The notes under the pieces: model-generated
What the model was told of the DNA's origin: nothing
The model's database searches: none
The model's input: only the letters and a program-made list of their open reading frames with translations
In this document: piece by piece, positions 12,608 to 57,010 of the stretch
Numbering within the stretch: position 1 is the first letter of the stretch
Layout: each line of letters begins with the position of its first letter
Position numbers and translations under genes: made by a program
Assembly: GCF_030506365.1 (NCBI RefSeq)
Contig: NZ_CP073092.1
Coordinates: forward strand, 1 to 64,000
DNA from: Corynebacterium tuberculostearicum
Lineage (GTDB): Bacteria > Actinomycetota > Actinomycetes > Mycobacteriales > Mycobacteriaceae
Direction: 5' to 3'
Length of the DNA: 64,000 bases

Positions 12608-15600
12608 CTACTTGATGTAATCCTGCATACCCGGCTCAAGCTCGGTTGCGCCGGACGGTACGGACTTAATCTCAACGCGCTCGGCGTTGGATGGCAGTGC
12701 GTTGCCAGTCTCTTCAGGTTCCTGACCCTGGACCTCAACGCCACGGCCGTGTCCATTTTCAGAGTTGCCGCCCTGAGGAGCATCCTGACCCTTGACCTCG
12801 TGACCATTGTCAGAGTTGCCGCCCTTAGGAGCATCCTGACCCTGGACCTCGTGACCATTGCCACCATCGTGGTTACCGGTGTTGTCACCGTGGCCACCGT
12901 TGTGGTTGCCATGATCCTTGTGGTCGAAGTGATCCTTGATGATCTTGCCCAAGCCGATGCCCGGAATCAGGATGAGCCACCACTTATTGTCCTTGGAGGA
13001 ACCGTCGGAGGATCCGCCGTCGCCCGGCTCCTGACCCTCAACCTCGTGGGAGGTTACGGTCTGGTCCTCATCATTGATGTCCTTGTGCTCAGCGATGTGG
13101 TTCGGATTCTCCGGAGTGGTATCCGGGGTGTCCTCACCCTTGTCGTTGACCTCAGTGGAGGTGAGCTCCTCGAAGGCAACCGCAGCCTCAACCGGCTCGG
13201 TCACATCATCATTGACGGTGATGGTGACAGGCTCCATGCCGTTGGACTTCTCCGGAGTGAAGGTAGCTTCACCCTTGCCCAGCACAGACTTGCCGTCCTT
13301 CTTGTTAATGAGCTCAGCCTTCAGGGTGTATTCCTTACCCGGAACCAGACCCTCGTAAGAAACCTGGTCCACAACCTTGGCACCAGCAACAACTGCGTGG
13401 GAGCCCTTCTCGAAGTCCGCCTTAGTGGAAACCTTCGGAGTCTTCTCAGAACCCTCAGAGGTCACAGTCTGATCTTCGTCATTGATGTCCTTGTGCTCAC
13501 CAACCGGATTCGGGTTGTCCTCATCGGTCGGGTTGTCCTCACCGTGCTTATCCACCTGGGTGGAAGTCAGCGTCTCGAAGGCAACCGCAGCCTCAACCGG
13601 CTCGGTCACATCATCATTGACGGTGATGGTGACAGCCTCCATGCCGTTGGACTTCTCCGGAGTGAAGGTAGCTTCACCCTTGCCCAGCACAGACTTGCCG
13701 TCCTTCTTGTTAATGAGCTCAGCCTTCAGGGTGTATTCCTTACCCGGAACCAGACCCTCGTAAGAAACCTGGTCCACAACCTTGGCACCAGCAACAACCT
13801 CACGCAGGCCACCCTCGAAGTCAGCGTTAGTGGAAACCTTCGGAGTCTTCTCAGAACCCTCAGAGGTCACAGTCTGATCTTCGTCATTGATGTCCTTGTG
13901 CTCACCAACCGGATTCGGGTTGTCCTCATCGGTCGGGTTGTCCTCACCGTGCTTATCCACCTGGGTGGAAGTCAGCGTCTCGAAGGCAACCGCAGCCTCA
14001 ACCGGCTCGGTCACATCATCATTGACGGTGATGGTGACAGCCTCAGTGCCATTAGCGCTCTCCGGAGTGAACTTGTGACCCTTAACCTCACCAAGAACGG
14101 TCTTGCCGTCCTCCTTGGAAATCAGCTGGGCATCCAGAGTGTATTCCTTACCCGGAACCAGACCCTCGTAAGAAACCTGGTCCACAACCTTGGCACCAGC
14201 AACAACCTCACGCAGGCCACCCTCGAAGTCAGCGTTAGTGGAAACCTTCGGAGTCTTCTCAGAACCCTCAGAGGTCACAGTCTGATCTTCGTCATTGATG
14301 TCCTTGTGCTCACCAACCGGATTCGGGTTGTCCTCATCGGTCGGGTTGTCCTCACCGTGCTTATCCACCTGGGTGGAAGTCAGCGTCTCGAAGGCAACCG
14401 CAGCCTCAACCGGCTCGGTCACATCATCATTGACGGTGATGGTGACAGCCTCAGTGCCATTAGCGCTCTCCGGAGTGAACTTGTGACCCTTAACCTCACC
14501 AAGAACGGTCTTGCCGTCCTCCTTGGAAATCAGCTGGGCATCCAGAGTGTATTCCTTACCCGGAACCAGACCCTCGTAAGAAACCTGGTCCACAACCTTG
14601 GCACCAGCAACAACCTCACGCAGGCCACCCTCGAAGTCAGCGTTAGTGGAAACCTTCGGAGTCTTCTCAGAACCCTCAGAGGTCACAGTCTGATCTTCGT
14701 CATTGATGTCCTTGTGCTCACCAACCGGATTCGGGTTGTCCTCATCGGTCGGGTTGTCCTCACCGTGCTTATCCACCTGGGTGGAAGTCAGCGTCTCGAA
14801 GGCAACCGCAGCCTCAACCGGCTCGGTCACATCATCATTGACGGTGATGGTGACAGCCTCAGTGCCATTAGCGCTCTCCGGAGTGAACTTGTGACCCTTA
14901 ACCTCACCAAGAACGGTCTTGCCGTCCTCCTTGGAAATCAGCTGGGCATCCAGAGTGTATTCCTTACCCGGAACCAGACCCTCGTAAGAAACCTGGTCCA
15001 CAACCTTGGCACCAGCAACAACCTCACGCAGGCCACCCTCGAAGTCAGCGTTAGTGGAAACCTTCGGAGTCTTCTCAGAACCCTCAGAGGTCACAGTCTG
15101 ATCTTCGTCATTGATGTCCTTGTGCTCACCAACCGGATTCGGGTTGTCCTCATCGGTCGGGTTGTCCTCACCGTGCTTATCCACCTGGGTGGAAGTCAGC
15201 GTCTCGAAGGCAACCGCAGCCTCAACCGGCTCGGTCACATCATCATTGACGGTGATGGTGACAGCCTCAGTGCCATTAGCGCTCTCCGGAGTGAACTTGT
15301 GACCCTTAACCTCACCAAGAACGGTCTTGCCGTCCTCCTTGGAAATCAGCTGGGCATCCAGAGTGTATTCCTTACCCGGAACCAGACCCTCGTAAGAAAC
15401 CTGGTCCACAACCTTGGCACCAGCAACAACCTCACGCAGGCCACCCTCGAAGTCAGCGTTAGTGGAAACCTTCGGAGTCTTCTCAGAACCCTCAGAGGTC
15501 ACAGTCTGATCTTCGTCATTGATGTCCTTGTGCTCACCAACCGGATTCGGGTTGTCCTCATCGGTCGGGTTGTCCTCACCGTGCTTATCCACCTGGGTGG

Positions 15601-18600
15601 AAGTCAGCGTCTCGAAGGCAACCGCAGCCTCAACCGGCTCGGTCACATCATCATTGACGGTGATGGTGACAGCCTCAGTGCCATTAGCGCTCTCCGGAGT
15701 GAACTTGTGACCCTTAACCTCACCAAGAACGGTCTTGCCGTCCTCCTTGGAAATCAGCTGGGCATCCAGAGTGTATTCCTTACCCGGAACCAGACCCTCG
15801 TAAGAAACCTGGTCCACAACCTTGGCACCAGCAACAACCTCACGCAGGCCACCCTCGAAGTCAGCGTTAGTGGAAACCTTCGGAGTCTTCTCAGAACCCT
15901 CAGAGGTCACAGTCTGATCTTCGTCATTGATGTCCTTGTGCTCACCAACCGGATTCGGGTTGTCCTCATCGGTCGGGTTGTCCTCACCGTGCTTATCCAC
16001 CTGGGTGGAAGTCAGCGTCTCGAAGGCAACCGCAGCCTCAACCGGCTCGGTCACATCATCATTGACGGTGATGGTGACAGCCTCAGTGCCATTAGCGCTC
16101 TCCGGAGTGAACTTGTGACCCTTAACCTCACCAAGAACGGTCTTGCCGTCCTCCTTGGAAATCAGCTGGGCATCCAGAGTGTATTCCTTACCCGGAACCA
16201 GACCCTCGTAAGAAACCTGGTCCACAACCTTGGCACCAGCAACAACCTCACGCAGGCCACCCTCGAAGTCAGCGTTAGTGGAAACCTTCGGAGTCTTCTC
16301 AGAACCCTCAGAGGTCACAGTCTGATCTTCGTCATTGATGTCCTTGTGCTCACCAACCGGATTCGGGTTGTCCTCATCGGTCGGGTTGTCCTCACCGTGC
16401 TTATCCACCTGGGTGGAAGTCAGCGTCTCGAAGGCAACCGCAGCCTCAACCGGCTCGGTCACATCATCATTGACGGTGATGGTGACAGCCTCAGTGCCAT
16501 TAGCGCTCTCCGGAGTGAACTTGTGACCCTTAACCTCACCAAGAACGGTCTTGCCGTCCTCCTTGGAAATCAGCTGGGCATCCAGAGTGTATTCCTTACC
16601 CGGAACCAGACCCTCGTAAGAAACCTGGTCCACAACCTTGGCACCAGCAACAACCTCACGCAGGCCACCCTCGAAGTCAGCGTTAGTGGAAACCTTCGGA
16701 GTCTTCTCAGAACCCTCAGAGGTCACAGTCTGATCTTCGTCATTGATGTCCTTGTGCTCACCAACCGGATTCGGGTTGTCCTCATCGGTCGGGTTGTCCT
16801 CACCGTGCTTATCCACCTGGGTGGAAGTCAGCGTCTCGAAGGCAACCGCAGCCTCAACCGGCTCGGTCACATCATCATTGACGGTGATGGTGACAGCCTC
16901 AGTGCCATTAGCGCTCTCCGGAGTGAACTTGTGACCCTTAACCTCACCAAGAACGGTCTTGCCGTCCTCCTTGGAAATCAGCTGGGCATCCAGAGTGTAT
17001 TCCTTACCCGGAACCAGACCCTCGTAAGAAACCTGGTCCACAACCTTGGCACCAGCAACAACCTCACGCAGGCCACCCTCGAAGTCAGCGTTAGTGGAAA
17101 CCTTCGGAGTCTTCTCAGAACCCTCAGAGGTCACAGTCTGATCTTCGTCATTGATGTCCTTGTGCTCACCAACCGGATTCGGGTTGTCCTCATCGGTCGG
17201 GTTGTCCTCACCGTGCTTATCCACCTGGGTGGAAGTCAGCGTCTCGAAGGCAACCGCAGCCTCAACCGGCTCGGTCACATCATCATTGACGGTGATGGTG
17301 ACAGCCTCAGTGCCATTAGCGCTCTCCGGAGTGAACTTGTGACCCTTAACCTCACCAAGAACGGTCTTGCCGTCCTCCTTGGAAATCAGCTGGGCATCCA
17401 GAGTGTATTCCTTACCCGGAACCAGACCCTCGTAAGAAACCTGGTCCACAACCTTGGCACCAGCAACAACCTCACGCAGGCCACCCTCGAAGTCAGCGTT
17501 AGTGGAAACCTTCGGAGTGTCCTTCTCGTCGTCACCAGGGGTACCCGGCTCGTTAGGCTCGGTCGATTCAGAAGGCTCGGTCGGCTTATCCGGGGTCGTC
17601 GACTCGCCGTCCGAAGGCTTGTCAGACTCAGAGGTCTCGGAAGCTTCAGAAGACGTGGTCTCTACAGACTCGGACTCAGAAGACTCACTGGACTCAGACT
17701 CAGACGGTTCCTCAGACTCGGAAGGCTTCTCACTCTCAGAGTCACCCGGCTCCTCAGACTCGCTGGCCTCGCTAGTCGTCGAGGTAGAGGAATCCTCAGA
17801 GGAAGAAGGCGTAGAGGTTTCACCCTCGCCACCGTGACCAGGCTTATCCGGAACCTCCTCGGTAGAGGTGGCGGTCTCCGGAGTGGTGGTCTCGGAAGGC
17901 TTGTCAGACTTTACAGTCTGAGCCTCGTCCTCGATATTGGTGTGCTCGGCGATGTCATTCTTCTCACCAGTGGTGGAATCCTCGCCGTCCTTGTTAACAG
18001 CAGTGGAGGTCAGGTACTCGAAAGCAACTGCCTCATCAACGGCCTCGGTAACACCCTCATCAACGGTGATCTTGACTTCTACCGTGCCCTCGGAGGTCTT
18101 CGGTACGAAGGTCTTCTCACCGTGGCCGATTACCGGGAAGTCACCAGTGGTCTCGTCCTTGACCTTGGAACGCAGCTCTGCATTCAGAGTGTATTCCTTG
18201 CCAGGAACCAGGTCGTTGTACTTAACCTTATCGGTAATGACGGTGCCAGCCTTGATCTCATCGCCCTCAGCCTTCTCAGCCTTGGTGCCGATGGATGGCT
18301 CCATCTTGGAGGTTACGGTCTGTGCCTCATCATCGATGTCGCGGTGATCGGTAATCTTCTTCTCTTCGTCAGAGTTCGGAGTGTCCTTACCGTTCTCATC
18401 GACCTGCTTGGAATAGAGATCCTCGAATGCGACGGCAGCCTTGATAACGCCTTCAACGTCATCGTTGACCTTAATGTCAACAACCTGCTCGCCGGAAGAC
18501 TTCTTCGGAGTGAAGGTTACATCGCCCTTGCCGACGACCTCGTGCTCACCCTTATCATTCTCAGCCTTGTTACGCAGCTCAGCCTTCAGGGTGTATTCCT

Positions 18601-20536
18601 TACCCGGCACCAAGTCGGTGTAGGTAACGGTGTCCTTGACGGTGACGCCAGCCTTTACCTGCTTAGCGTTGTCAAATTCAGCCTTAGTCTGGATAGACGG
18701 GGTCCACTTGGTGTTAACGGTCTGCTTCTCATCGTTGATGTCTTCGTGAGTAGCAATCTCGTTCTCATCGGAGGAGCCAGTGGTCTCGTTGCCATCCTTG
18801 TCTACCTCGGTAGATACAAGCTTCTCGAAGGCAACCGCAGCGTCAACAGCAGGATCTGCCTTCTCGTTGACGGTGATCTCAACCTTCTGTTCACCGGCGG
18901 ACTCCTTCGGAGTCAGTTCCGCAGAGCCTTCACCCAGTACGGTTTCGCCATCTTTCTTGGAGATGAGTTTTGCCTTCAGGGTGTACTTCTTACCCGGAAC
19001 AAGATCCTTATACGTCACAGTGTCAATAACCGTGGCACCCTTCTCTACACGGTTGCCATCCTTGATCTTGGCCTGCGTGTGAATCTCAGGATTCCACTTG
19101 GTATTGACGGTCTGCGCCTCATCATCAATGTCCTCGTGCTTCGCAATGAAGTTGCCATCGCCGGAATCGTTCGGGACATCCTTGCCGTTCTCATCCACCT
19201 CGTGGGAGTACAGCTTCTCATAAGCAACGGCAGCAGCAACAGGGTTCTTCACACTGTCATCGACATTGATCTTTACCTCAACGTCCCCGGACTCACCCGT
19301 AGCTTCAAAGGTCTCAGAACCGGTACCAAGAATAGCGTGCTCGCCGTTCTCGCCAGCAGCCTTGTTACGCAGCTCAGCCTTTAGGGTGTACTTCTTACCC
19401 GGGACAAGATCCTCGTAGTGAACCTTGTCCTTAACGGTAGCGCCAGCAACGACCTGCTGCTTGTCGCCATCAAAGGAAGCTTCAGTCTTAATCTCCGGAT
19501 TAAGGTCCTTCTCCTGCTCTTCAGTGCCTGGAACCGGAGCGGTCGGCTCAGTCACCTTAGTGGTCTCGTCAGGAGAGGTCGGTTCAGTAGTGGAATCCTT
19601 TGGAGTGGTCTCCTCAGTGTTAGACGGCTCAGAATCCGTGGTCGTCTCACTATTAGGGGTAGTCTCCTCACCCGGATTCTCAGGAGTGGTCTCATCGGAC
19701 GGATTTTCCTCCGTCTTCGGAGTCTCCGGAGAAGTAGTAGGTTCCTCAGTTTCACCTTCATCGTCGGGCAGACCCGGCTGATCCGGCGGCATTACTCGCT
19801 GCATGCCTGGAGCCCTTTTCCCATTCTTCTCAACCGGAATAACCACAGTGACGAAATAGTCTGCAGGTTGCTCAGGAATCTCTGAAACCTTCTTGAAAGA
19901 AGGGCCCTTATTTCCCGGAGTATAAGCGCTCTCAATCTCAAGACCCGTTAGATCTGTGAATTCTTTCATAGAGCCATTAAAGGTCGGAAAGTTGACTTGA
20001 TCATAAGGGTTGTTGTACTTGGGCTGTTGCCCGTTAATGGTATAGGCGGCCGCAGTCCTGTTATCCGGACGTTCACTTACCAGCGCTATCATGTATACCA
20101 CATACGTACCCGCAGCGGCCTTATCCCCAGCCTTAATGGCCTTTTGCCACTCGAGAGCTAACCGAATCACAGCGTCCCGATACTCGGAAGGAATGCTCAA
20201 TTTTGTCGCGTTGTCCTTCGAGTACAAAACGCTAGTTTTGTTATTTGGGTACTTGTCAAGAGGATCTATACACCAAGCCCACCCCACGTTGTTATTTGGG
20301 TTTGCCTTCGTGCCATCCTTAGGGGGACCTGCCCACGTCAGAGAGCCCCATGCCTGGGCGTCCTCGCCTACATTAACCCTACCGCCCATCTCTACGTTCG
20401 GCGTAAAGTCGGTAGGCTCAGCAGCCCCTGCCTTACTACCCGGAACGGTGACCATGGCCGCGATTACCGCAATTGCAGCAAGCACTGCGGTAAAGACCAT
20501 CCACCCCTCTCGGGATATATTTCTTAACTTACTCAT
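12608..20536 (-). CDS. Giant VaFE-repeat surface protein (2642 aa)
   Basis: This is a secreted adhesin-like fibre protein. Residues 1-39 form a signal peptide (cleavage near AGAA/EPT). Residues 40-240 are a globular head with the only cysteine I see in the protein (C89 in WAWCIDP), resembling thioester adhesin domains. Residues 245-340 are a Pro/Thr/Glu stalk. Four diverged VaFE-type beta repeats occupy about 345-877, then a Ser/Glu-rich stalk 878-1005, then eleven further repeats 1006-2497, nine of them identical. Each repeat has LVPGKEYTL and VAFE. The C-terminus has a short hydrophobic patch (WWLILIPGIGLG), a His/Gly/Asn-rich region with repeated GQDAP units, and a charged tail ending MQDYIK. 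No LPxTG motif plus terminal membrane helix is visible. GAGGAAAG precedes the ATG. Confidence 0.93.
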   Translation of the reverse strand: MSKLRNISREGWMVFTAVLAAIAVIAAMVTVPGSKAGAAEPTDFTPNVEMGGRVNVGEDAQAWGSLTWAGPPKDGTKANPNNNVGWAWCIDPLDKYPNNKTSVLYSKDNATKLSIPSEYRDAVIRLALEWQKAIKAGDKAAAGTYVVYMIALVSERPDNRTAAAYTINGQQPKYNNPYDQVNFPTFNGSMKEFTDLTGLEIESAYTPGNKGPSFKKVSEIPEQPADYFVTVVIPVEKNGKRAPGMQRVMPPDQPGLPDDEGETEEPTTSPETPKTEENPSDETTPENPGEETTPNSETTTDSEPSNTEETTPKDSTTEPTSPDETTKVTEPTAPVPGTEEQEKDLNPEIKTEASFDGDKQQVVAGATVKDKVHYEDLVPGKKYTLKAELRNKAAGENGEHAILGTGSETFEATGESGDVEVKINVDDSVKNPVAAAVAYEKLYSHEVDENGKDVPNDSGDGNFIAKHEDIDDEAQTVNTKWNPEIHTQAKIKDGNRVEKGATVIDTVTYKDLVPGKKYTLKAKLISKKDGETVLGEGSAELTPKESAGEQKVEITVNEKADPAVDAAVAFEKLVSTEVDKDGNETTGSSDENEIATHEDINDEKQTVNTKWTPSIQTKAEFDNAKQVKAGVTVKDTVTYTDLVPGKEYTLKAELRNKAENDKGEHEVVGKGDVTFTPKKSSGEQVVDIKVNDDVEGVIKAAVAFEDLYSKQVDENGKDTPNSDEEKKITDHRDIDDEAQTVTSKMEPSIGTKAEKAEGDEIKAGTVITDKVKYNDLVPGKEYTLNAELRSKVKDETTGDFPVIGHGEKTFVPKTSEGTVEVKITVDEGVTEAVDEAVAFEYLTSTAVNKDGEDSTTGEKNDIAEHTNIEDEAQTVKSDKPSETTTPETATSTEEVPDKPGHGGEGETSTPSSSEDSSTSTTSEASESEEPGDSESEKPSESEEPSESESSESSESESVETTSSEASETSESDKPSDGESTTPDKPTEPSESTEPNEPGTPGDDEKDTPKVSTNADFEGGLREVVAGAKVVDQVSYEGLVPGKEYTLDAQLISKEDGKTVLGEVKGHKFTPESANGTEAVTITVNDDVTEPVEAAVAFETLTSTQVDKHGEDNPTDEDNPNPVGEHKDINDEDQTVTSEGSEKTPKVSTNADFEGGLREVVAGAKVVDQVSYEGLVPGKEYTLDAQLISKEDGKTVLGEVKGHKFTPESANGTEAVTITVNDDVTEPVEAAVAFETLTSTQVDKHGEDNPTDEDNPNPVGEHKDINDEDQTVTSEGSEKTPKVSTNADFEGGLREVVAGAKVVDQVSYEGLVPGKEYTLDAQLISKEDGKTVLGEVKGHKFTPESANGTEAVTITVNDDVTEPVEAAVAFETLTSTQVDKHGEDNPTDEDNPNPVGEHKDINDEDQTVTSEGSEKTPKVSTNADFEGGLREVVAGAKVVDQVSYEGLVPGKEYTLDAQLISKEDGKTVLGEVKGHKFTPESANGTEAVTITVNDDVTEPVEAAVAFETLTSTQVDKHGEDNPTDEDNPNPVGEHKDINDEDQTVTSEGSEKTPKVSTNADFEGGLREVVAGAKVVDQVSYEGLVPGKEYTLDAQLISKEDGKTVLGEVKGHKFTPESANGTEAVTITVNDDVTEPVEAAVAFETLTSTQVDKHGEDNPTDEDNPNPVGEHKDINDEDQTVTSEGSEKTPKVSTNADFEGGLREVVAGAKVVDQVSYEGLVPGKEYTLDAQLISKEDGKTVLGEVKGHKFTPESANGTEAVTITVNDDVTEPVEAAVAFETLTSTQVDKHGEDNPTDEDNPNPVGEHKDINDEDQTVTSEGSEKTPKVSTNADFEGGLREVVAGAKVVDQVSYEGLVPGKEYTLDAQLISKEDGKTVLGEVKGHKFTPESANGTEAVTITVNDDVTEPVEAAVAFETLTSTQVDKHGEDNPTDEDNPNPVGEHKDINDEDQTVTSEGSEKTPKVSTNADFEGGLREVVAGAKVVDQVSYEGLVPGKEYTLDAQLISKEDGKTVLGEVKGHKFTPESANGTEAVTITVNDDVTEPVEAAVAFETLTSTQVDKHGEDNPTDEDNPNPVGEHKDINDEDQTVTSEGSEKTPKVSTNADFEGGLREVVAGAKVVDQVSYEGLVPGKEYTLDAQLISKEDGKTVLGEVKGHKFTPESANGTEAVTITVNDDVTEPVEAAVAFETLTSTQVDKHGEDNPTDEDNPNPVGEHKDINDEDQTVTSEGSEKTPKVSTNADFEGGLREVVAGAKVVDQVSYEGLVPGKEYTLKAELINKKDGKSVLGKGEATFTPEKSNGMEAVTITVNDDVTEPVEAAVAFETLTSTQVDKHGEDNPTDEDNPNPVGEHKDINDEDQTVTSEGSEKTPKVSTKADFEKGSHAVVAGAKVVDQVSYEGLVPGKEYTLKAELINKKDGKSVLGKGEATFTPEKSNGMEPVTITVNDDVTEPVEAAVAFEELTSTEVNDKGEDTPDTTPENPNHIAEHKDINDEDQTVTSHEVEGQEPGDGGSSDGSSKDNKWWLILIPGIGLGKIIKDHFDHKDHGNHNGGHGDNTGNHDGGNGHEVQGQDAPKGGNSDNGHEVKGQDAPQGGNSENGHGRGVEVQGQEPEETGNALPSNAERVEIKSVPSGATELEPGMQDYIK
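13847..17518 (-). repeat. Nine tandem 408-bp identical repeats
   Basis: Nine head-to-tail 408-bp units encode the 136-residue repeat STNADFEGGLREVV...TVTSEGSEK of the giant surface protein. Comparing stretches 2040 bp (five units) apart, I found no base difference until the array ends at 17518, so the units look identical. A 405-bp hybrid unit (about 13442-13846) and a more diverged unit (about 13045-13441) continue the array on the C-terminal side. Such identity implies recent expansion or gene conversion and predicts length variation between isolates. 408 is a multiple of three, so unit loss or gain keeps the frame. Confidence 0.97.
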
Positions 20537-20635
20537 TCTTTCCTCTTCGAGCGGTACAAATACTTACATTCGTTTTCCTGTACAGCGAGTGTCTTCGCTG
20601 AACAGAACCTGAAATTGAGACTTGAACACACTGCG

Positions 20636-20670
20636 GTTAATCAGGGTTTTGAACCCGAATCTGGATTAAC
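20636..20670. repeat. Nested inverted repeat upstream of the giant gene
   Basis: GTTAATC at 20636-20642 and GATTAAC at 20664-20670 form an inverted repeat. Inside it lies a second one, GGGTT-TTG-AACCC at 20644-20656. It sits in the probable 5' untranslated region 100-135 bp before the start codon and could be an operator or an mRNA structure. Confidence 0.5.
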
Positions 20671-20688
20671 TCTTATCGTGCTCTCAGC

Positions 20689-20694
20689 ATAGTA
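20689..20694 (-). promoter_or_regulatory. Probable -10 element of the giant surface protein gene
   Basis: TACTAT on the minus strand, preceded by TGA (extended -10 type), gives a leader of about 145 nt. No convincing -35 is visible. Confidence 0.4.
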
Positions 20695-20699
20695 TCACG

Positions 20700-21203
20700 G
20701 GAAAATTTAAGGCGCCAGCCAGAAAGCTTTAGAAAACTGCAGGTTATGCAGGATTTCTAATTTCATACCCACAGGTGGATGCACTTATTTCCACGGTTAA
20801 CCTAGGTTTAAATACGTATGTTCAATGTTTCCTAGGCCTTTCTTAAGGTCTGGACACCACACTAATGGCTTAATCAATACTAAGATTAGCTTTAACAAGA
20901 CCTACGTAGATATTTCTTTACGCTGTGCTTTATCTAATTTCTTGCAAATTTTAGAGAGGGGGGATTGCACGCAATTTCTTCGCGTCACCCCGCTACCATC
21001 CCCAGAAAGTTGGTGTTACAGGTGTAACTGCATGGCATTCGATAAGAGTGTACGCACGTTCGACATTTAGAAATGTAGTAATCCTTAACCCTTTTGCCTC
21101 TCATCTCCAAGAAGGGCTGTGTGAGCGAAAACTCTGCCTAAGGTCGTCACAATCACACTTAGGACCCCCGAATAGGGAGTGAGGGAGAATTGGGCAAAGA
21201 AAA
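20700..21203. other. Gene-free AT-rich stretch
   Basis: This stretch is clearly AT-richer than its surroundings and lies between the giant surface protein gene and the next gene's terminator. The only open frame (20825-21070, +) has no ribosome site and no recognisable protein character. I see no RNA gene. The low GC content fits a regulatory region or the edge of an acquired segment. Confidence 0.5.
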
Positions 21204-21254
21204 ATCCGCACGGGCGTCGGCAAGCGGATGCTTTACCGAGGCCGCAGTGCGGAT
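21204..21254 (-). terminator. Rho-independent terminator of the small secreted protein gene
   Basis: ATCCGCAC and GTGCGGAT pair around a GC-rich interior, followed on the minus strand by TTTTTC. It lies 19 bp past the stop of the 107-codon gene. Confidence 0.8.
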
Positions 21255-21272
21255 CCTGGAATGAACTAGGCC

Positions 21273-21596
21273 TTAAAGAACGGCAGTAACCCGGTAGCCC
21301 TTTTCCTGCAGGAGCTGGGAAACCGCCTCAAAAGTATCGCCATCCTTGTCCGGGTTGTAGGTCTCCGGGTTCAGGGCAATATGGGCGGTGTCGCCTTCGT
21401 AACGGACGCTGATGAAGTCGTAGCCGGCTTCGGCATGGGCGGCGTCGATAAGCGCCTGCACGTCGTCGTTGTTGCCCTGCTCAGCAACAGCAACCTGCTC
21501 CTGCTCAGGTGCCGGCGCAGCCTCCTGCGCCGGGGCGCCCAGGCCGAAGAAGCCCATAATCGTGGCTAGCAGGCCGCTCACAAGCTTGATAATCAT
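21273..21596 (-). CDS. Small secreted protein of unknown function
   Basis: This is a 107-residue protein with an N-terminal hydrophobic signal or anchor (about 1-24, MIIKLVSGLL), a short Ala/Pro/Glu/Gln linker, and a compact C-terminal domain of about 60 residues (ALIDAAHAEAGYDFISVRY through GYRVTAVL). I do not recognise the domain. The gene is monocistronic, with a good promoter (TTGAAC-17-TAAAGT) and a strong terminator, which supports real expression. There are no cysteines. The product is probably exported and either membrane-tethered or released. Confidence 0.75.
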   Translation of the reverse strand: MIIKLVSGLLATIMGFFGLGAPAQEAAPAPEQEQVAVAEQGNNDDVQALIDAAHAEAGYDFISVRYEGDTAHIALNPETYNPDKDGDTFEAVSQLLQEKGYRVTAVL

Positions 21597-21675
21597 TGAA
21601 GTAACTCCCTGTGTAGTAATACGCGGGAATAGGGCCCGCGAAAGCTGAAAACTCTCAGTACTTAAAGCAATCTTA

Positions 21676-21704
21676 ACTTTAGCTTAGTATCTAGTTACGT
21701 TCAA
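21676..21704 (-). promoter_or_regulatory. Promoter of the small secreted protein gene
   Basis: TTGAAC (21704-21699) and TAAAGT (21681-21676) are separated by exactly 17 bp on the minus strand. This gives a leader of about 75 nt containing a CGCGGG/CCCGCG hairpin (21622-21640). Confidence 0.6.
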
Positions 21705-21751
21705 CAGGGAAAGCCTTAATTCACCAAATCATGAGCTTGTGGGTGGTTAAG

Positions 21752-21776
21752 GGGCGCTGAAAACGCCACAGCGCCC
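21752..21776. other. Alternative hairpin overlapping the purA terminator
   Basis: GGGCGCTG (21752-21759) pairs with CAGCGCCC (21769-21776). The right arm shares six bases with the left arm of the larger hairpin at 21771-21807, so only one of the two can form at a time. Confidence 0.55.
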
Positions 21777-21807
21777 GTGCTCCGTCTCAATGACGGGACA
21801 CGGGCGC
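21771..21807 (-). terminator. Strong hairpin downstream of purA
   Basis: GCGCCCGTG pairs with CACGGGCGC, and an inner CCGTC/GACGG stem closes a 5-base loop. It lies about 160 bp past the purA stop. TTT follows on the plus strand; on the minus strand GTTTTC follows a few bases later. The stretch between it and purA (21808-21968) contains nothing I recognise. Confidence 0.65.
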
Positions 21808-21968
21808 TTTCACTCAATTAGGGCTAAATCCTTAAAGGGACCGCGAGCTGGATAGGGGTAGCAACCTTTGTTGTCTGCTTGGAGGGCTAGAAGAAGCATC
21901 GTGCAGAGAGCCAGTTCAGCTGTGCTAGAGAGTGGGGCTCTCACCCCAGGCTAATAAGGACTACATCC

Positions 21969-23261
21969 TTACTGGTCTTCCATGACATCGTGACGCACGA
22001 TGGTCTGGTCGCGACCCGGACCAACGCCGATATAGGAGATACGGCAGCCAGACAGCTCTTCCAAGCGCAGGACGTAATCCTGTGCCTTCTGCGGCAGCTC
22101 CTCGAAGGTGGAGCACTCTGTGATGTCTTCATCCCAAGCCGGCATGGTCTCGAAGATGGGCTCGGCGTGGTGGAACTCGGACTGGGTAAGCGGCAGTTCG
22201 TCGTAGCGCTTGCCGTCGACGTCGTAAGCGACGCAGATCGGGATCTCGCCAATGCCGGTAAGAACGTCCAGCTTGGTCAAGAAGTAATCGGTAAAGCCGT
22301 TAACGCGGGTGGCATAGCGCGCCACAACGGAGTCATACCAACCACAACGGCGCTTGCGGCCGGTGTTCACGCCAATCTCGCCACCGGTGGTCTGCAGGTA
22401 CTCGCCCCACTTATCAAAGAGCTCGGTGGGGAACGGGCCGGCACCCACGCGGGTGGTATAAGCCTTGATGATGCCCAGCGAGGTCTTGATGCGCGTTGGG
22501 CCAATGCCGGAGCCCACGGAAGCACCACCGGCGGTCGGGTTAGACGAGGTCACGAACGGGTAGGTGCCGTGGTCCACGTCGAGCATGGTGGCTTGGCCAC
22601 CCTCCATGAGCACGTGCTTGCCAGCTTCGAGGGCCTGGTTGAGCTCCAGCTCGGCGTCGATAACCATCGGGCGCAGGCGGTCGCGGTAGCTTAGGAAGTA
22701 CTCCACAATCTGATCCGCCTCGATGGCCTTACGGTTGTACATCTTCACCAGCATCTGGTTCTTGATATCCAGCGCGGATTCCACCTTCTGGCGCAGGATA
22801 GACTCATCAAAGATGTCCTGCACGCGGATGCCAATGCGCGCAACCTTATCGGCGTAGGTCGGTCCAATGCCGCGGCCGGTGGTGCCGATAGCGCGCTTGC
22901 CCAGGAAGCGCTCCTGCACGCGGTCCAGGGTCTGGTGGTACGGCGCCACCAGGTGCGCGTTGGCGGAAATCTTCAGGCGCGAGGCGTTCGCGCCGCGGGC
23001 CTCAAGGCCATCAATCTCATCAAAGAGCGCCTCAAGGTTGATCACAACGCCATTGCCCAGCACCGGGGTGGCGTTCTCGGACAAAATGCCGGCCGGCAGG
23101 AGCTTCAGCTCGTATTTTTCGCCGCCTACCACGACGGTATGGCCGGCGTTATTACCGCCGTTCGGCTTGACCACGTAGTCAACCTTGCCGCCGAGGATGT
23201 CGGTCGCTTTGCCCTTGCCTTCGTCGCCCCACTGGGCGCCGACAATGACGATCGCTGCCAT
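21969..23261 (-). CDS. purA: Adenylosuccinate synthetase
   Basis: This is a GTP-dependent ligase (430 residues) making adenylosuccinate from IMP and aspartate in AMP synthesis. The P-loop-like [14 protein letters not shown] opens the protein. The IMP-binding loop GGNNAGHT, the region [18 protein letters not shown], the catalytic GPFPTEL and the guanine-specificity region near the C-terminus ([10 protein letters not shown]) are all present, and the length is standard. It appears monocistronic, with an ATG 87 bp from the divergent unknown gene. AATGAGGAAGTG lies upstream as ribosome site. Confidence 0.97.
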
Positions 23262-49019: not shown

Positions 49020-49025
49020 ATGTAT

Positions 49026-49202
49026 ATGTTCGATTCCCTCGCAGACCTCAGCTCCGCCATCGACTTCGAGGCACTCATCAAGGGCATCAAGGGCCTCATC
49101 GAGGCTTCCTCCGAGTCCAACACCGACTCCGAGGGCCTGTCCTCCGTATTCGAGGGCCTGTCCTCCAAGGATGACGCAGAGGCTGCTGCAGAAGCTAAGT
49201 AA
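49026..49202 (+). CDS. Small acidic amphipathic peptide (possible PorH/PorA-like channel peptide)
   Basis: This is a 58-residue peptide without signal sequence: MFDSLADLSSAIDFEALIKG at the start, then a Ser/Glu/Asp-rich part with two similar GLSSxFEGLSS-like units and an Ala/Glu tail. Small acidic helical peptides of this size form the mycolate outer-membrane channels PorA/PorH in corynebacteria; similarity here is in size and character only. ATG 49026 is chosen over 49020 because GAAAGGA then has a proper 6-bp spacing. The gene has its own terminator at 49281. Confidence 0.7.
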   Translation: MFDSLADLSSAIDFEALIKGIKGLIEASSESNTDSEGLSSVFEGLSSKDDAEAAAEAK

Positions 49203-49385: not shown

Positions 49386-50576
49386 GTGGACCGCACCGTG
49401 TCGAAACCTTCACAGCCGCCCCTTCACCAACGCATCCGCGCGGCCATGACTCTGCAACGAACAGCCGCTTTAACTGCGGTGATCTGCGTGGCGCTGACAT
49501 TACTTGGCGCATTCCTCACCCCCACGGAGTATCAATTATCCGCGGCAATCTTGGGGTTAATTCTTACAGTGATCACCACCTCCGCCTATCGCTGGCCCTT
49601 GGGAATGGCCGCCGCGTTCGTAATCACCTGGATTATCGCGGCCATTCTAACCAGAACCCCTTTAATCAGCTCTGTATTTTTGGCCCCAGTCTTTCTTGCT
49701 GTTGTGGCCTATCACGGAAAGCACGGGCGTACAGTCGCAATAGGTTTCATTCTGTGGTTCTGTGGCCTCGTCGATCCCGTAACACTTCAGTTAAGTTTGC
49801 ATCTTGCCCCCGCGCTCACATGGGGAATGCTCATTGGAGTTGGCGGCGTAATTGGAGCTATATTTGCTCATTCGGCAGATCGCTATAGATCCGCCATGGT
49901 GGAGTGGAACGATGACGTGAAGCGCCGACAATCCGACCTCGCAGAAACATTGCATAATTCGGTTGTTTCTAACCTCACGGTAAATACCATGCAGCTAGAG
50001 GCTCTAAGCCTCGAATATTCCAAGCAGCCAGAACTAGCGAAGAAACTCGATGAGCTCAGCGATTCCATGCGCTCTTCCATGTCCGAAGTACGGGCACTGA
50101 CCAAGGTCCTGCGAAATAATATCGATGGACTTAACGACGGCATGAGTTTTGGCACAACCACGAAGCCGACCAGCTTCGCCCAGCTAATTTCCGAAGAAGA
50201 AGAGCGCCTTTCCCGGCTCAACCGATCACCCATTGTTGAGGTCGCAGGGGAAGAGTTCGCACCGGAATTCCCGCAAGCCATTCTCGATCCCATTGCAGCC
50301 ATCACCACAGAAGCCTGCCTAAACGCAGTGAAGTATTCGCCACCAGGGGCGGAGATAGTAATTTCCGTCCGCCCCCACATGGGATGGACGGTCATCACCA
50401 TCACCAATCCCGTCGCTAAACCAACTAGCAAGAACATTGAAATGTCCTCAGGTATAGGCATGTCCTCCATGAACCGGATTGCAGCCACGATTGACGCACG
50501 ACTGGACACTGACTTGGAATCGGGGAAATGGGAATTGAACTTATTTCTGCCACCCAGCGCCCATAAGCGGCGTTAG
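49386..50576 (+). CDS. Sensor histidine kinase, six membrane segments (NarL-type partner)
   Basis: This 396-residue kinase has about six closely spaced hydrophobic segments (residues 22-160) with almost no extracytoplasmic loop, then a HisKA_3 dimerisation domain with H190 (LAETLHNSVVSNL) and an HATPase domain (ACLNAVKYSPPGAEI; SGIGMSSMNRI). Kinases with such intramembrane sensors respond to membrane-active compounds or small peptides. The start is uncertain: GTG 49386 or 49398, or ATG 49446. The cognate regulator lies downstream, and a 51-codon peptide gene lies between them. Confidence 0.9.
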   Translation: MDRTVSKPSQPPLHQRIRAAMTLQRTAALTAVICVALTLLGAFLTPTEYQLSAAILGLILTVITTSAYRWPLGMAAAFVITWIIAAILTRTPLISSVFLAPVFLAVVAYHGKHGRTVAIGFILWFCGLVDPVTLQLSLHLAPALTWGMLIGVGGVIGAIFAHSADRYRSAMVEWNDDVKRRQSDLAETLHNSVVSNLTVNTMQLEALSLEYSKQPELAKKLDELSDSMRSSMSEVRALTKVLRNNIDGLNDGMSFGTTTKPTSFAQLISEEEERLSRLNRSPIVEVAGEEFAPEFPQAILDPIAAITTEACLNAVKYSPPGAEIVISVRPHMGWTVITITNPVAKPTSKNIEMSSGIGMSSMNRIAATIDARLDTDLESGKWELNLFLPPSAHKRR

Positions 50577-50666
50577 TTCCACCACGATGTATAGCGAAGG
50601 CTTAATCCATACACTAAGCTTTCGTTTGTTTCTGCCTATTCAAACTTTCACAAAAGGAGCGCCTTG

Positions 50667-50822
50667 ATGCAGGCCGCACTCGCAAGTCTTCTCGCCCCAC
50701 TCATGTTGTCTTCTTCCATCTTCGGCGCCGGCCTTACCCCTGGTGAGCTGCCGAAGACTACGGAATACGCATCTCCCGTCGATATTGCATTTGGTTGCCC
50801 GGCTCCATGGTGCGGGAAGTAA
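50667..50822 (+). CDS. 51-residue putative secreted peptide between kinase and regulator
   Basis: This short gene has an ATG at 50667 with a strong ribosome site (AAAAGGAG, 7-bp spacing). The peptide has a hydrophobic N-terminus of about 22 residues (MQAALASLLAPLMLSSSIFG), a short polar middle and the C-terminus FGCPAPWCGK with two cysteines four residues apart. The hydrophobic part lacks a basic N-terminus, so it is an atypical signal sequence. Its last 16 bases overlap the regulator's start, which couples translation of the two. It could be an exported signal peptide sensed by the kinase, a small membrane modulator, or merely a translational leader. Confidence 0.65.
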   Translation: MQAALASLLAPLMLSSSIFGAGLTPGELPKTTEYASPVDIAFGCPAPWCGK

Positions 50823-51493
50823 AAACATCCCTCTTAGTCGTCGATGACGACCCACTTGTCCTTGAGGCCCTGGGACGCTACTTCGCCTCGGCTGAGGACA
50901 TGGAGGTGCGCGCCACCGCAGAAAATGGCAAGGTCGCCCTCGAGCTTTTGCAAGAGCAGGACTTCGACGTCATTGTCGCGGACATCCATATGCCCGAGAT
51001 GGATGGCACGACCCTCTTGCGTGAGGTCAACAAGCTGGAAGACCCGCCGGTCTTTGTTGCGATGACCGCGATGGACAATGACGAGACCCTCAAAGAGGTC
51101 ATGTCCAACAAGGCCGCGGCCTATATTTTGAAAAGCTCCAAGCCGGTCTACATTTTGGATACCGTGCGCGAGGCCGTGCGCGGCGGCACGGTTGTCACCC
51201 CACAGTCACTTACCCGCTTGTTTGAGCAGCTTCCCGATTGGAACGCTGAGGGAGCAGGCGCCGAGGCGGCTGCCGCAACCGCAAAAATCAAGGACAATCA
51301 CCACATCTCTCCCGCGCTAGAGCAGGTCCTGGACTTGGTCTGCCAAGGAAAGTCCAACGAAGAGATTGCCAAGAGCACACACTATGCACCGGGCACAGTG
51401 AAGAAGTACGTGTCCACCCTGCTCAGTGAATTCCACGCCAAGTCGCGCCTCGAGCTGGCAGTGAAGGCACTTAAGGCCGGCTACGGTTCCTAA
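50807..51493 (+). CDS. NarL/LuxR-family response regulator
   Basis: This is a 228-residue response regulator. The receiver domain has acidic residues D13-D15 (VVDDDP), the phospho-acceptor D59 (VIVADIHMPEMDG) and K near 109 (YILKSSKP). The C-terminal LuxR-type HTH covers about 160-225 (LDLVCQGKSNEEIAKS, APGTVKKYVSTLLSEF). ATG 50807 is the first ATG of the domain and overlaps the peptide gene; a TTG at 50795 is less likely. It pairs with the HisKA_3 kinase upstream. Two hairpins follow the stop. Confidence 0.93.
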   Translation: MVREVKTSLLVVDDDPLVLEALGRYFASAEDMEVRATAENGKVALELLQEQDFDVIVADIHMPEMDGTTLLREVNKLEDPPVFVAMTAMDNDETLKEVMSNKAAAYILKSSKPVYILDTVREAVRGGTVVTPQSLTRLFEQLPDWNAEGAGAEAAAATAKIKDNHHISPALEQVLDLVCQGKSNEEIAKSTHYAPGTVKKYVSTLLSEFHAKSRLELAVKALKAGYGS

Positions 51494-55629: not shown

Positions 55630-55644
55630 GTAGACAATGTCTAC
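55630..55644. promoter_or_regulatory. 15-bp palindrome spanning the transporter start codon
   Basis: GTAGACA-A-TGTCTAC is a perfect inverted repeat with the ATG (55637) at its centre. A CATAGT -10-like element lies just before it, so it overlaps the probable transcription start. Confidence 0.55.
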
Positions 55645-57010
55645 GTCACATAATTCGTCTTCCCGCGACGAGGCCAAGCGCCCGTCTACGCAGGAAAAAG
55701 GCAACGCAACCCAGATCCAAAAGCCAGGCGAGGAAGATTCTCATACCCTCGTCGCTTATGATGACGCGCACCTTGGTGCAGAGGCTGCCAGCGAGCACCC
55801 TGCCGAGCGCGACGATAAATCCGCCGTCCTGGCCAAGGACTTCCGCACTATGGCCAAGGTCTCGGTAGTCTTCATCCTCATCGTCGCCGGCCTAGCGCTG
55901 GCCGGCTACCTGCTCAAATTCATTTGGGTAGGCCTGCTGCCGGTCTTGCTCGCCATCCTCGTCTCCACGGTGCTCTACCCCATCAGCGCGTGGCTGCGCA
56001 GTAAGGGATTCCCGCGCTCGCTCGCGGCAGTGAGCACCTTGCTCGGCCTCATCATTATCTTCTGCGGCGTCTTTGCCGCCATGGCCCCCGTAGTCACCAG
56101 CCAAAGCCAAACGCTCATTGACCAGGCCGAGGATGGCATTAACCAGCTGACGGAGATGGTGGAAAAGTCCCCCATCGATATCCAAAGTGACCAGCTACAA
56201 TCCGTGCTGCAAGACGTGGTCAAGTTTGCCAAGGGCCAAGCCTCGACCATCGCCACCGGCGTTATCTCTGGTTTCTCGATGGCCAGCTCCATCGTCGTGG
56301 CCGCGCTGATCATGCTCTTTGTCACCTTCTTCATCATTAAAGACGGCGACAAGTTCCTGCCGTGGCTGCGCAAGTACACCGGCAATTCCACCGGCTGGCA
56401 CATCACCGAGTTGGGGGCGCGCATCTGGAAGACCCTGTCCGGCTTTATCCAGGCGCAGGCCGCCGTGGCCATGGTGGACGCAGTCCTCATCGGCCTTGGC
56501 CTGTGGGTGCTGCAAGTTCCGCTCGCGCTCGTCATCGCCGTGGTGACGTTCTTCGCCAGCTTCATCCCGATCATCGGTGCGGTCACCGCTGGCGCCCTCG
56601 CCATCATCATCGCGCTGGTTTCCAATGGCCTGACCAACGCGCTGCTGGCGCTCGCACTTATCATCATCGTCCAGCAGGTGGAAGGCAATGTCCTCCAGCC
56701 GATGCTGCAGTCCAAGGCCATGGGCCTGCACGCGGCCGTTGTCCTACTCTCCGTCACCGTCGGCTCCACCCTGGCCGGCATTGTCGGCGCCTTCCTCGCC
56801 GTCCCCGTGGCCGCAACCATCGCTGTTGTGGTGCGCTACCACGCCGAGATGGCCGCACTGCGCTCCGGCGAAGTCGAGCCCTCCGATATAGACATCATCA
56901 CCGGCTCCAAGGACGATCCTGAAGACTTCAGCGACTTCACCTACGAACACGACGAGACCCCACGCGACAAGGTAGAGCAGCTCTACCAGTCCATGAGTCC
57001 GCTGAGCTAA
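55637..57010 (+). CDS. AI-2E family transporter
   Basis: This 457-residue membrane protein of the AI-2E/PerM family has a hydrophilic acidic N-terminus of about 70 residues, then about eight membrane segments with the family regions (SQSQTLIDQAEDGINQL extracytoplasmic domain, FASFIPIIGAVTAGALAI, QQVEGNVLQPMLQSKAMGLH) and a charged cytoplasmic tail. Members export diverse solutes, including Na+/H+ exchange in some; the name does not prove autoinducer transport. The ATG sits inside a 15-bp palindrome, and there is no ribosome site, which suggests a leaderless mRNA. Confidence 0.88.
   Translation: MSTSHNSSSRDEAKRPSTQEKGNATQIQKPGEEDSHTLVAYDDAHLGAEAASEHPAERDDKSAVLAKDFRTMAKVSVVFILIVAGLALAGYLLKFIWVGLLPVLLAILVSTVLYPISAWLRSKGFPRSLAAVSTLLGLIIIFCGVFAAMAPVVTSQSQTLIDQAEDGINQLTEMVEKSPIDIQSDQLQSVLQDVVKFAKGQASTIATGVISGFSMASSIVVAALIMLFVTFFIIKDGDKFLPWLRKYTGNSTGWHITELGARIWKTLSGFIQAQAAVAMVDAVLIGLGLWVLQVPLALVIAVVTFFASFIPIIGAVTAGALAIIIALVSNGLTNALLALALIIIVQQVEGNVLQPMLQSKAMGLHAAVVLLSVTVGSTLAGIVGAFLAVPVAATIAVVVRYHAEMAALRSGEVEPSDIDIITGSKDDPEDFSDFTYEHDETPRDKVEQLYQSMSPLS

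Follow-up and report, generated by a model that had tools for sequence, protein, structure and literature searches.

What does a 51-codon open reading frame do when it lies between the genes for a membrane histidine kinase and its LuxR-type response regulator? The question is raised by the window analysed here, which covers the initial 64 kb of a Corynebacterium contig of 2.47 Mb and in which these three genes are flanked by the dnaK-grpE-dnaJ genes and by a gene for a PutA-type proline/aldehyde dehydrogenase. An initial annotation had described the small frame as preceded by a strong ribosome site, encoding a peptide whose N-terminus is hydrophobic and whose tail reads CPAPWC, and overlapping the regulator start by 16 bp; it had offered the peptide as a ligand, accessory factor or pheromone of a six-segment kinase or, more simply, as a translational leader for the regulator. 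The gene order, the 51 codons, the tail and the overlap are all borne out by the ORF coordinates, and the ribosome site lies where it was expected, ahead of the peptide gene. The features of the locus are as follows.

49386..50576, + strand: sensor histidine kinase, GTG start, 396 aa, with a multi-span N-terminal membrane domain and a HisKA_3 core (ORF list, Pfam, hydropathy)
50614..50632, + strand: block CTAAGCTTTCGTTTGTTTC in the gap between the kinase and peptide genes (alignment of 21 loci)
50652..50659, + strand: ribosome site AAAAGGAG of the peptide gene (sequence, alignment of 21 loci)
50667..50822, + strand: peptide gene, ATG start, 51 codons, hydrophobic N-terminus, FGCPAPWC close to the C-terminus (ORF list, profile search, dN/dS)
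50807..50822, + strand: 16-bp overlap of the peptide end with the regulator start, where translational coupling is likely (sequence)
50807..51493, + strand: LuxR-type response regulator, ATG start, with Response_reg and GerE domains (ORF list, Pfam)

The kinase and the regulator are a two-component pair of the HisKA_3/LuxR type: the HisKA_3 match of the kinase lies above the Pfam cut-off (31.3 bits, E 3e-7), its HATPase_c match falls under the curated cut-off (20.2 vs 26.4 bits), and both Response_reg and GerE exceed their Pfam cut-offs in the regulator. The description of the kinase as six-segmented agrees with hydropathy, by which about six hydrophobic segments fall within residues 19–165. 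The peptide has no match in Pfam, NCBIfam or PHROGs. Because no ribosome site is seen before the regulator start in the window sequence, translational coupling of peptide and regulator is likely in this locus and its closest relatives (the window clade, defined below). A Pfam scan of six flanking ORFs recognised a MerR-type protein, DnaJ, GrpE, Hsp70, the proline/aldehyde dehydrogenase and an AI-2E family transporter, the last encoded at 55637–57010 (+), two genes 3′ of the regulator. We also note a 60-aa ORF at 49020–49202 (+), directly 5′ of the kinase, which has the same neighbourhood in 21 of 21 clade genomes, is more strongly conserved than the kinase, with a pS of 0.09 among the close species, and is without a Pfam or NCBIfam match; it gives the impression, and only that, of resembling the small corynebacterial porins.

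Close relatives of the peptide are few and consistently placed. Of 201 genomes searched first, 12 gave a match at E <= 1.2e-6, with all remaining matches at E >= 0.01; among those remaining matches whose loci were inspected (L013–L030) there is no regulator of the family nearby, and they were set aside as noise. A profile search over 242 genomes detects the peptide in 21, all at E <= 8.2e-21, and then drops to a match at E 0.006; regulators with at least 73% identity to that of the window occur in precisely these 21, the next regulators being about 50% identical. In the 21 extracted loci of this window clade the peptide sits between the same kinase and regulator. The small peptide gene is real and under purifying selection, which was checked in these homologous loci: outside the overlap, the median dN/dS is 0.13 in eleven close species, 0.06 in a second group of six, and 0.14 in all 20 distinct sequences. 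The hydrophobic character of the N-terminus also holds; however, it is not a textbook signal peptide in the window clade, since none of the 21 members, as their starts are called, has a lysine or arginine in residues 2–20.

All 125 regulator loci found at E <= 1e-40, from 117 of 242 Corynebacterium genomes, were fetched. Upstream of regulators that are 38–55% identical, small ORFs with signal-peptide marks again lie between kinase and regulator and have tails such as IFSCKTYHYPWC. Because the broad peptide model (A3) has at least one weak match at E <= 1 in all 242 genomes, we counted as peptides only Cys-tail matches within a regulator locus. By this count a small peptide gene is present in 113 of the 125 loci, using a model built from 33 peptides of the same set; 110 loci have both kinase and peptide, and in the other three no kinase was detected in the stretch. 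Six loci have a kinase without an intact peptide (L193–L196 and L205, with no peptide, and L106), and six have neither, the regulator being an orphan. In L106 the second tail cysteine is replaced by serine (PWSK), and the kinase and regulator beside it look intact. A model-free rule gives a similar picture: of 90 loci (21 of them from the window clade), 75 have an ORF with a tail of the form Cys...[WFYL]Cys immediately 5′ of the regulator, with 2.5 expected from dinucleotide shuffles and a single, chance match among 25 control loci. A scan of named genomes, which is not a census, gave at least five Corynebacterium loci among the 80 listed; the named hosts are C. lowii, C. lipophiloflavum, C. 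amycolatum SK46, C. aurimucosum and a record titled C. vitaeruminis 1285_CVIT.

Alignment of these peptides reveals a shared tail of approximately [FL]-x-C-x(3-7)-W-C, which is absent from all of the family libraries searched. Nearly all members have the two tail cysteines, and the residues that separate the first cysteine from the residue preceding the second number 7 in 74 peptides, 6 in 16, 4 in two and 3 in 21. Among 90 distinct tails, tryptophan precedes the second cysteine in 85, phenylalanine or leucine stands two residues before the first cysteine in 81, and aspartate stands four before it in 49. Signal-peptide marks, scored by simple rules and not by a signal-peptide predictor, are ordinary in 52 of 54 peptides outside the window clade; in these (L073–L141, called starts) a lysine or arginine occurs in residues 2–15 in 53 and an AxA-type site in 52. 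The part of the peptide that follows the signal peptide is about 20–60 residues long. The 33 members of the A3 alignment have scattered Pfam matches only, at E >= 0.03 and in one member each.

The gene arrangements bear directly on the simplest of the proposed roles, that of an ORF which merely starts or meters translation of the regulator. The order is kinase-peptide-regulator in 102 loci and kinase-regulator-peptide in seven, and in one further locus the regulator and the peptide gene are on opposite strands. Because the peptide does not precede the regulator in these eight loci it is no mere leader, even though the seven regulator-first cases are not independent, since six or seven of them belong to one clade (the three included in the tree form one clade). 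The 16-bp overlap and the lack of a visible ribosome site before the regulator start are what a leader would lead us to expect in the window, but the purifying selection outside the overlap, the signal-peptide marks and the conserved tail are not. Moreover, three of the 21 loci of the window clade (L070–L072) keep a CPSPFC tail although no ATG overlaps it; their regulators must therefore use another start codon, probably TTG. As a full explanation the leader fails, and we regard it as very improbable.

The alternative offered by the initial annotation, in which the peptide serves the kinase as ligand, accessory factor or pheromone, is supported by the purifying selection on the peptide, by its presence in 113 of the 125 family loci and its absence from the controls searched with the same model. 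No match was found in 20 LuxR-type loci outside the family (18 from other genera and two from Corynebacterium), nor at any of the ten other HisKA_3 kinases of the window genome. Among 301 genomes of 31 genera there is no regulator outside Corynebacterium closer than E 8.6e-30, and by this regulator search the system is found in Corynebacterium only. A quick tree of the regulators (75 members, 10 outgroup rows) places the members that lack a peptide in scattered positions and counts nine changes in total, consistent with repeated loss; its details are uncertain, since one of the outgroup rows nests among the members and several branches are long.

Comparison of the locus among eleven close species shows that the kinase and peptide genes form a hypervariable block between conserved flanks. 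The pS values are 0.64–0.70 for the kinase and 0.57 for the peptide, compared with 0.17 for dnaK (ten species), 0.09 for the 60-aa ORF ahead of the kinase, 0.31 and 0.45 for the two halves of the regulator gene, and 0.27–0.30 for putA. The second group (six species) shows a weak contrast only, with 0.31–0.38 for the kinase, 0.37 for the peptide and 0.39–0.41 for the regulator, and flanks at 0.14–0.16 (dnaK) and 0.18–0.23 (putA). Trees built for ten of the eleven species and one outgroup disagree about one genome in particular, G052: in the flank tree, in which most other branches are unresolved, it pairs with G000 (98/99); in the regulator tree it groups with G000, G093 and G005 (97/97); and in the kinase-plus-peptide tree it joins G198, G230 and G231 (100/100). 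The last conflicts with both of the others, and AU tests, for groups that were picked after the pS profile had been seen, reject the alternatives with p values of 2e-75 and 0.002. Kinase and peptide thus seem to have been exchanged together between species.

Within the block, the peptide varies with the sensor part of the kinase. Between G000 and G093 pS is 0.62 for the sensor, 0.50 for the peptide, 0.29 for the core that lies between them and 0.18 for the regulator, and the difference between peptide and core has a p value of 0.02. With core and regulator allowed for, the partial correlation of peptide with sensor is 0.28 across 85 loci (p 0.0005) and 0.56 across the 11 species (p 0.0002), these Mantel-type p values being too low when rows are related; that of peptide with core is 0.22 and 0.47, and that of peptide with regulator is 0.02 and a weak 0.25 (p 0.03), respectively. 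Each species is represented by one genome. Sensor exchange is not by itself diagnostic of a peptide signal, because it is also seen in L333 (C1:1730456-1731640 of the window genome), a control HisKA_3 kinase without a peptide gene, whose sensor is exchanged and divergent in the same close species (pS 0.52 vs 0.26 in the core). This control speaks for a cassette that reflects ordinary exchange of kinase sensor domains, with the peptide carried along and having no signal role. Such exchange would, however, leave the conserved exported peptide unexplained, as well as the excess of both sensor and peptide over the intervening core in G000 and G093, and a second control, L336, is without the pattern (sensor 0.23 vs core 0.37); we consider this explanation highly unlikely. 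In the eleven close species kinase and peptide diversify and move as a cassette, and for this pattern we infer a cause like that of pherotypes.

Because the three genes recur in many species of the genus and sensor and peptide seem to be exchanged together, an undescribed peptide-based signalling system is suggested. We favor, with a probability of roughly 0.6, the reading that an exported and probably disulfide-ringed peptide is the signal of the neighbouring kinase, to which it would bind. The peptide would be exported, in most members through a cleavable Sec signal peptide, and its tail cysteines would form a small disulfide ring outside the membrane. To judge from the association and the co-variation, the membrane domain of the kinase may sense the ringed peptide as an autocrine or quorum signal; the kinase would then be expected, as a member of its family, to phosphorylate the LuxR-type regulator. 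Positive feedback is possible, since the regulator comes after the peptide gene in the usual order. Kinase and peptide would diversify and pass between species in the manner of pherotypes, as the one group of close species suggests.

It is conceivable that the exported peptide instead remains at the membrane, without diffusing away, and tunes its own kinase, as an accessory sensor or inhibitor similar to HbpS-SenS-SenR, with the true stimulus (redox state, envelope stress or a membrane-active compound) lying elsewhere and being sensed by way of the complex or the two cysteines. The genetic evidence is the same for this role as for a signal, and the two cysteines of nearly all members suit it; there is also a precedent in streptomycetes, where a secreted accessory protein acts with a membrane kinase and its response regulator in a single pathway (PMC4991794). 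A signal and its receptor would nonetheless more typically diversify and be exchanged jointly, as peptide and sensor do here, and we take the peptide to be a probable ligand; an accessory role is the main rival and seems rather unlikely. The peptide may also be what the pathway produces, such as a small bacteriocin-like product controlled by a kinase and regulator that sense some other stimulus. Short exported cysteine-containing peptides can be bacteriocins, and the gene order would place the regulator with its target, but the peptide accompanies one kinase type throughout the genus and covaries with its sensor, and neither an immunity gene nor an exporter is recognised between the three genes; we think this improbable.

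The proposed signal and receptor can be compared with several known systems. In ComQXPA, a quorum-sensing system of Bacillus, the pre-peptide is, as here, encoded next to a kinase of several membrane spans and a regulator, ComA, which is LuxR-type. Pherotypes are set there by a poorly conserved part that contains comX together with the 5′ end of comP (PMC6334282, PMC4008528) and also comQ (PMC6334282). The Corynebacterium loci similarly combine a hypervariable pre-peptide gene and 5′ part of the kinase gene with a conserved regulator, clearly in the eleven close species and weakly in the second six; unlike ComQXPA, the peptide has, in most members, the marks of a Sec-type signal peptide, as well as two conserved cysteines, and the Pfam scan of the six flanking ORFs shows nothing ComQ-like. 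The agr system also has a small peptide gene with its own kinase and regulator and a hypervariable signal-receptor block, but the Corynebacterium regulator is LuxR-type (GerE) and not LytTR, the tail suggests a disulfide and not a thiolactone, and none of the six flanking ORFs scanned is AgrB-like. HbpS is a full-size protein which shares with this system the combination of secreted protein, membrane kinase and regulator in an actinobacterium; the window peptide differs in being 51 aa long, having no Pfam or NCBIfam match and not classifying as HbpS-type haem-binding. In C. glutamicum, LuxR-type regulators likewise accompany kinases, including in EsrISR, of which EsrI is a membrane protein. 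EsrISR has been called a three-component system, and in C. glutamicum ATCC 13032 five of five HPK7 kinases pair with LuxR-type regulators (passages of PMC3353115); the main text of that paper, which covers only the systems of two C. glutamicum strains and their orthologues, does not contain the word 'peptide'. For the genus, passages of a 2016 review mention LuxR-type domains only (PMC4748050), and a full-text search of the open-access literature, with subscription papers and preprints outside its scope, found neither the peptide nor the system nor any Corynebacterium peptide quorum sensing.

A possible output is suggested by the neighbours of the system in other genomes. The window genome contains a trio of adjacent open frames, of 430, 211 and 198 aa (C1:787087-789562; L366 3588-6063), far from the kinase-peptide-regulator genes; members of this secreted family, which often forms a trio, adjoin the three genes of the system in at least 17 genomes, 16 of which have them no more than about 0.3 kb from the regulator and one at about 3 kb (L197–L201, L204, L211, L214–L216 and L367–L374). 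They are not nearby in the wide loci L193, L195, L202, L206–L210, L212, L213 and L217. Among the matches listed, the regulator family is present in 69 of 80 genomes with a strong match to the secreted family (E < 1e-50) and in 48 of 162 without (Fisher p 1.6e-17, with kinship ignored). The secreted proteins have no convincing match to solved structures or Pfam families; a likeness to pore-forming proteins is an impression by eye and is not claimed. We regard the trio as a candidate target of the system, no more.

A broader proposal, which we offer tentatively and at somewhat less than even odds, is that these loci constitute an undescribed, genus-wide peptide language of Corynebacterium, in which Sec-exported disulfide-ring peptides of the form C-x(3-7)-W-C and their kinases would be exchanged as pherotype cassettes, species would acquire or drop a signal held in common, and the secreted trio, where it adjoins the system, would be under its control. 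If true, this would supply a class of kinases that has no known stimulus with a candidate ligand, and would offer about 90 natural tail alleles for tests of specificity and a means of finding out which members of Corynebacterium hear one another.

In the alignment of 21 loci, the most strongly conserved stretch between the kinase and peptide genes, apart from the ribosome site, includes the block at 50614–50632. This block has one match within the window, with 0.05 expected, and one perfect match in the genome, and is possibly a promoter or a site of regulation or autoregulation. The conserved 20-bp block was rejected as a guide to the regulon, there being a single perfect match and 16 with two mismatches (8 forward and 9 reverse in total) compared with 7 and 7 for the reversed pattern. 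Elsewhere in the window, the region at about 14000–22000 has a G+C content of 0.51–0.56, compared with about 0.62–0.65 in its surroundings, and is possibly acquired DNA.
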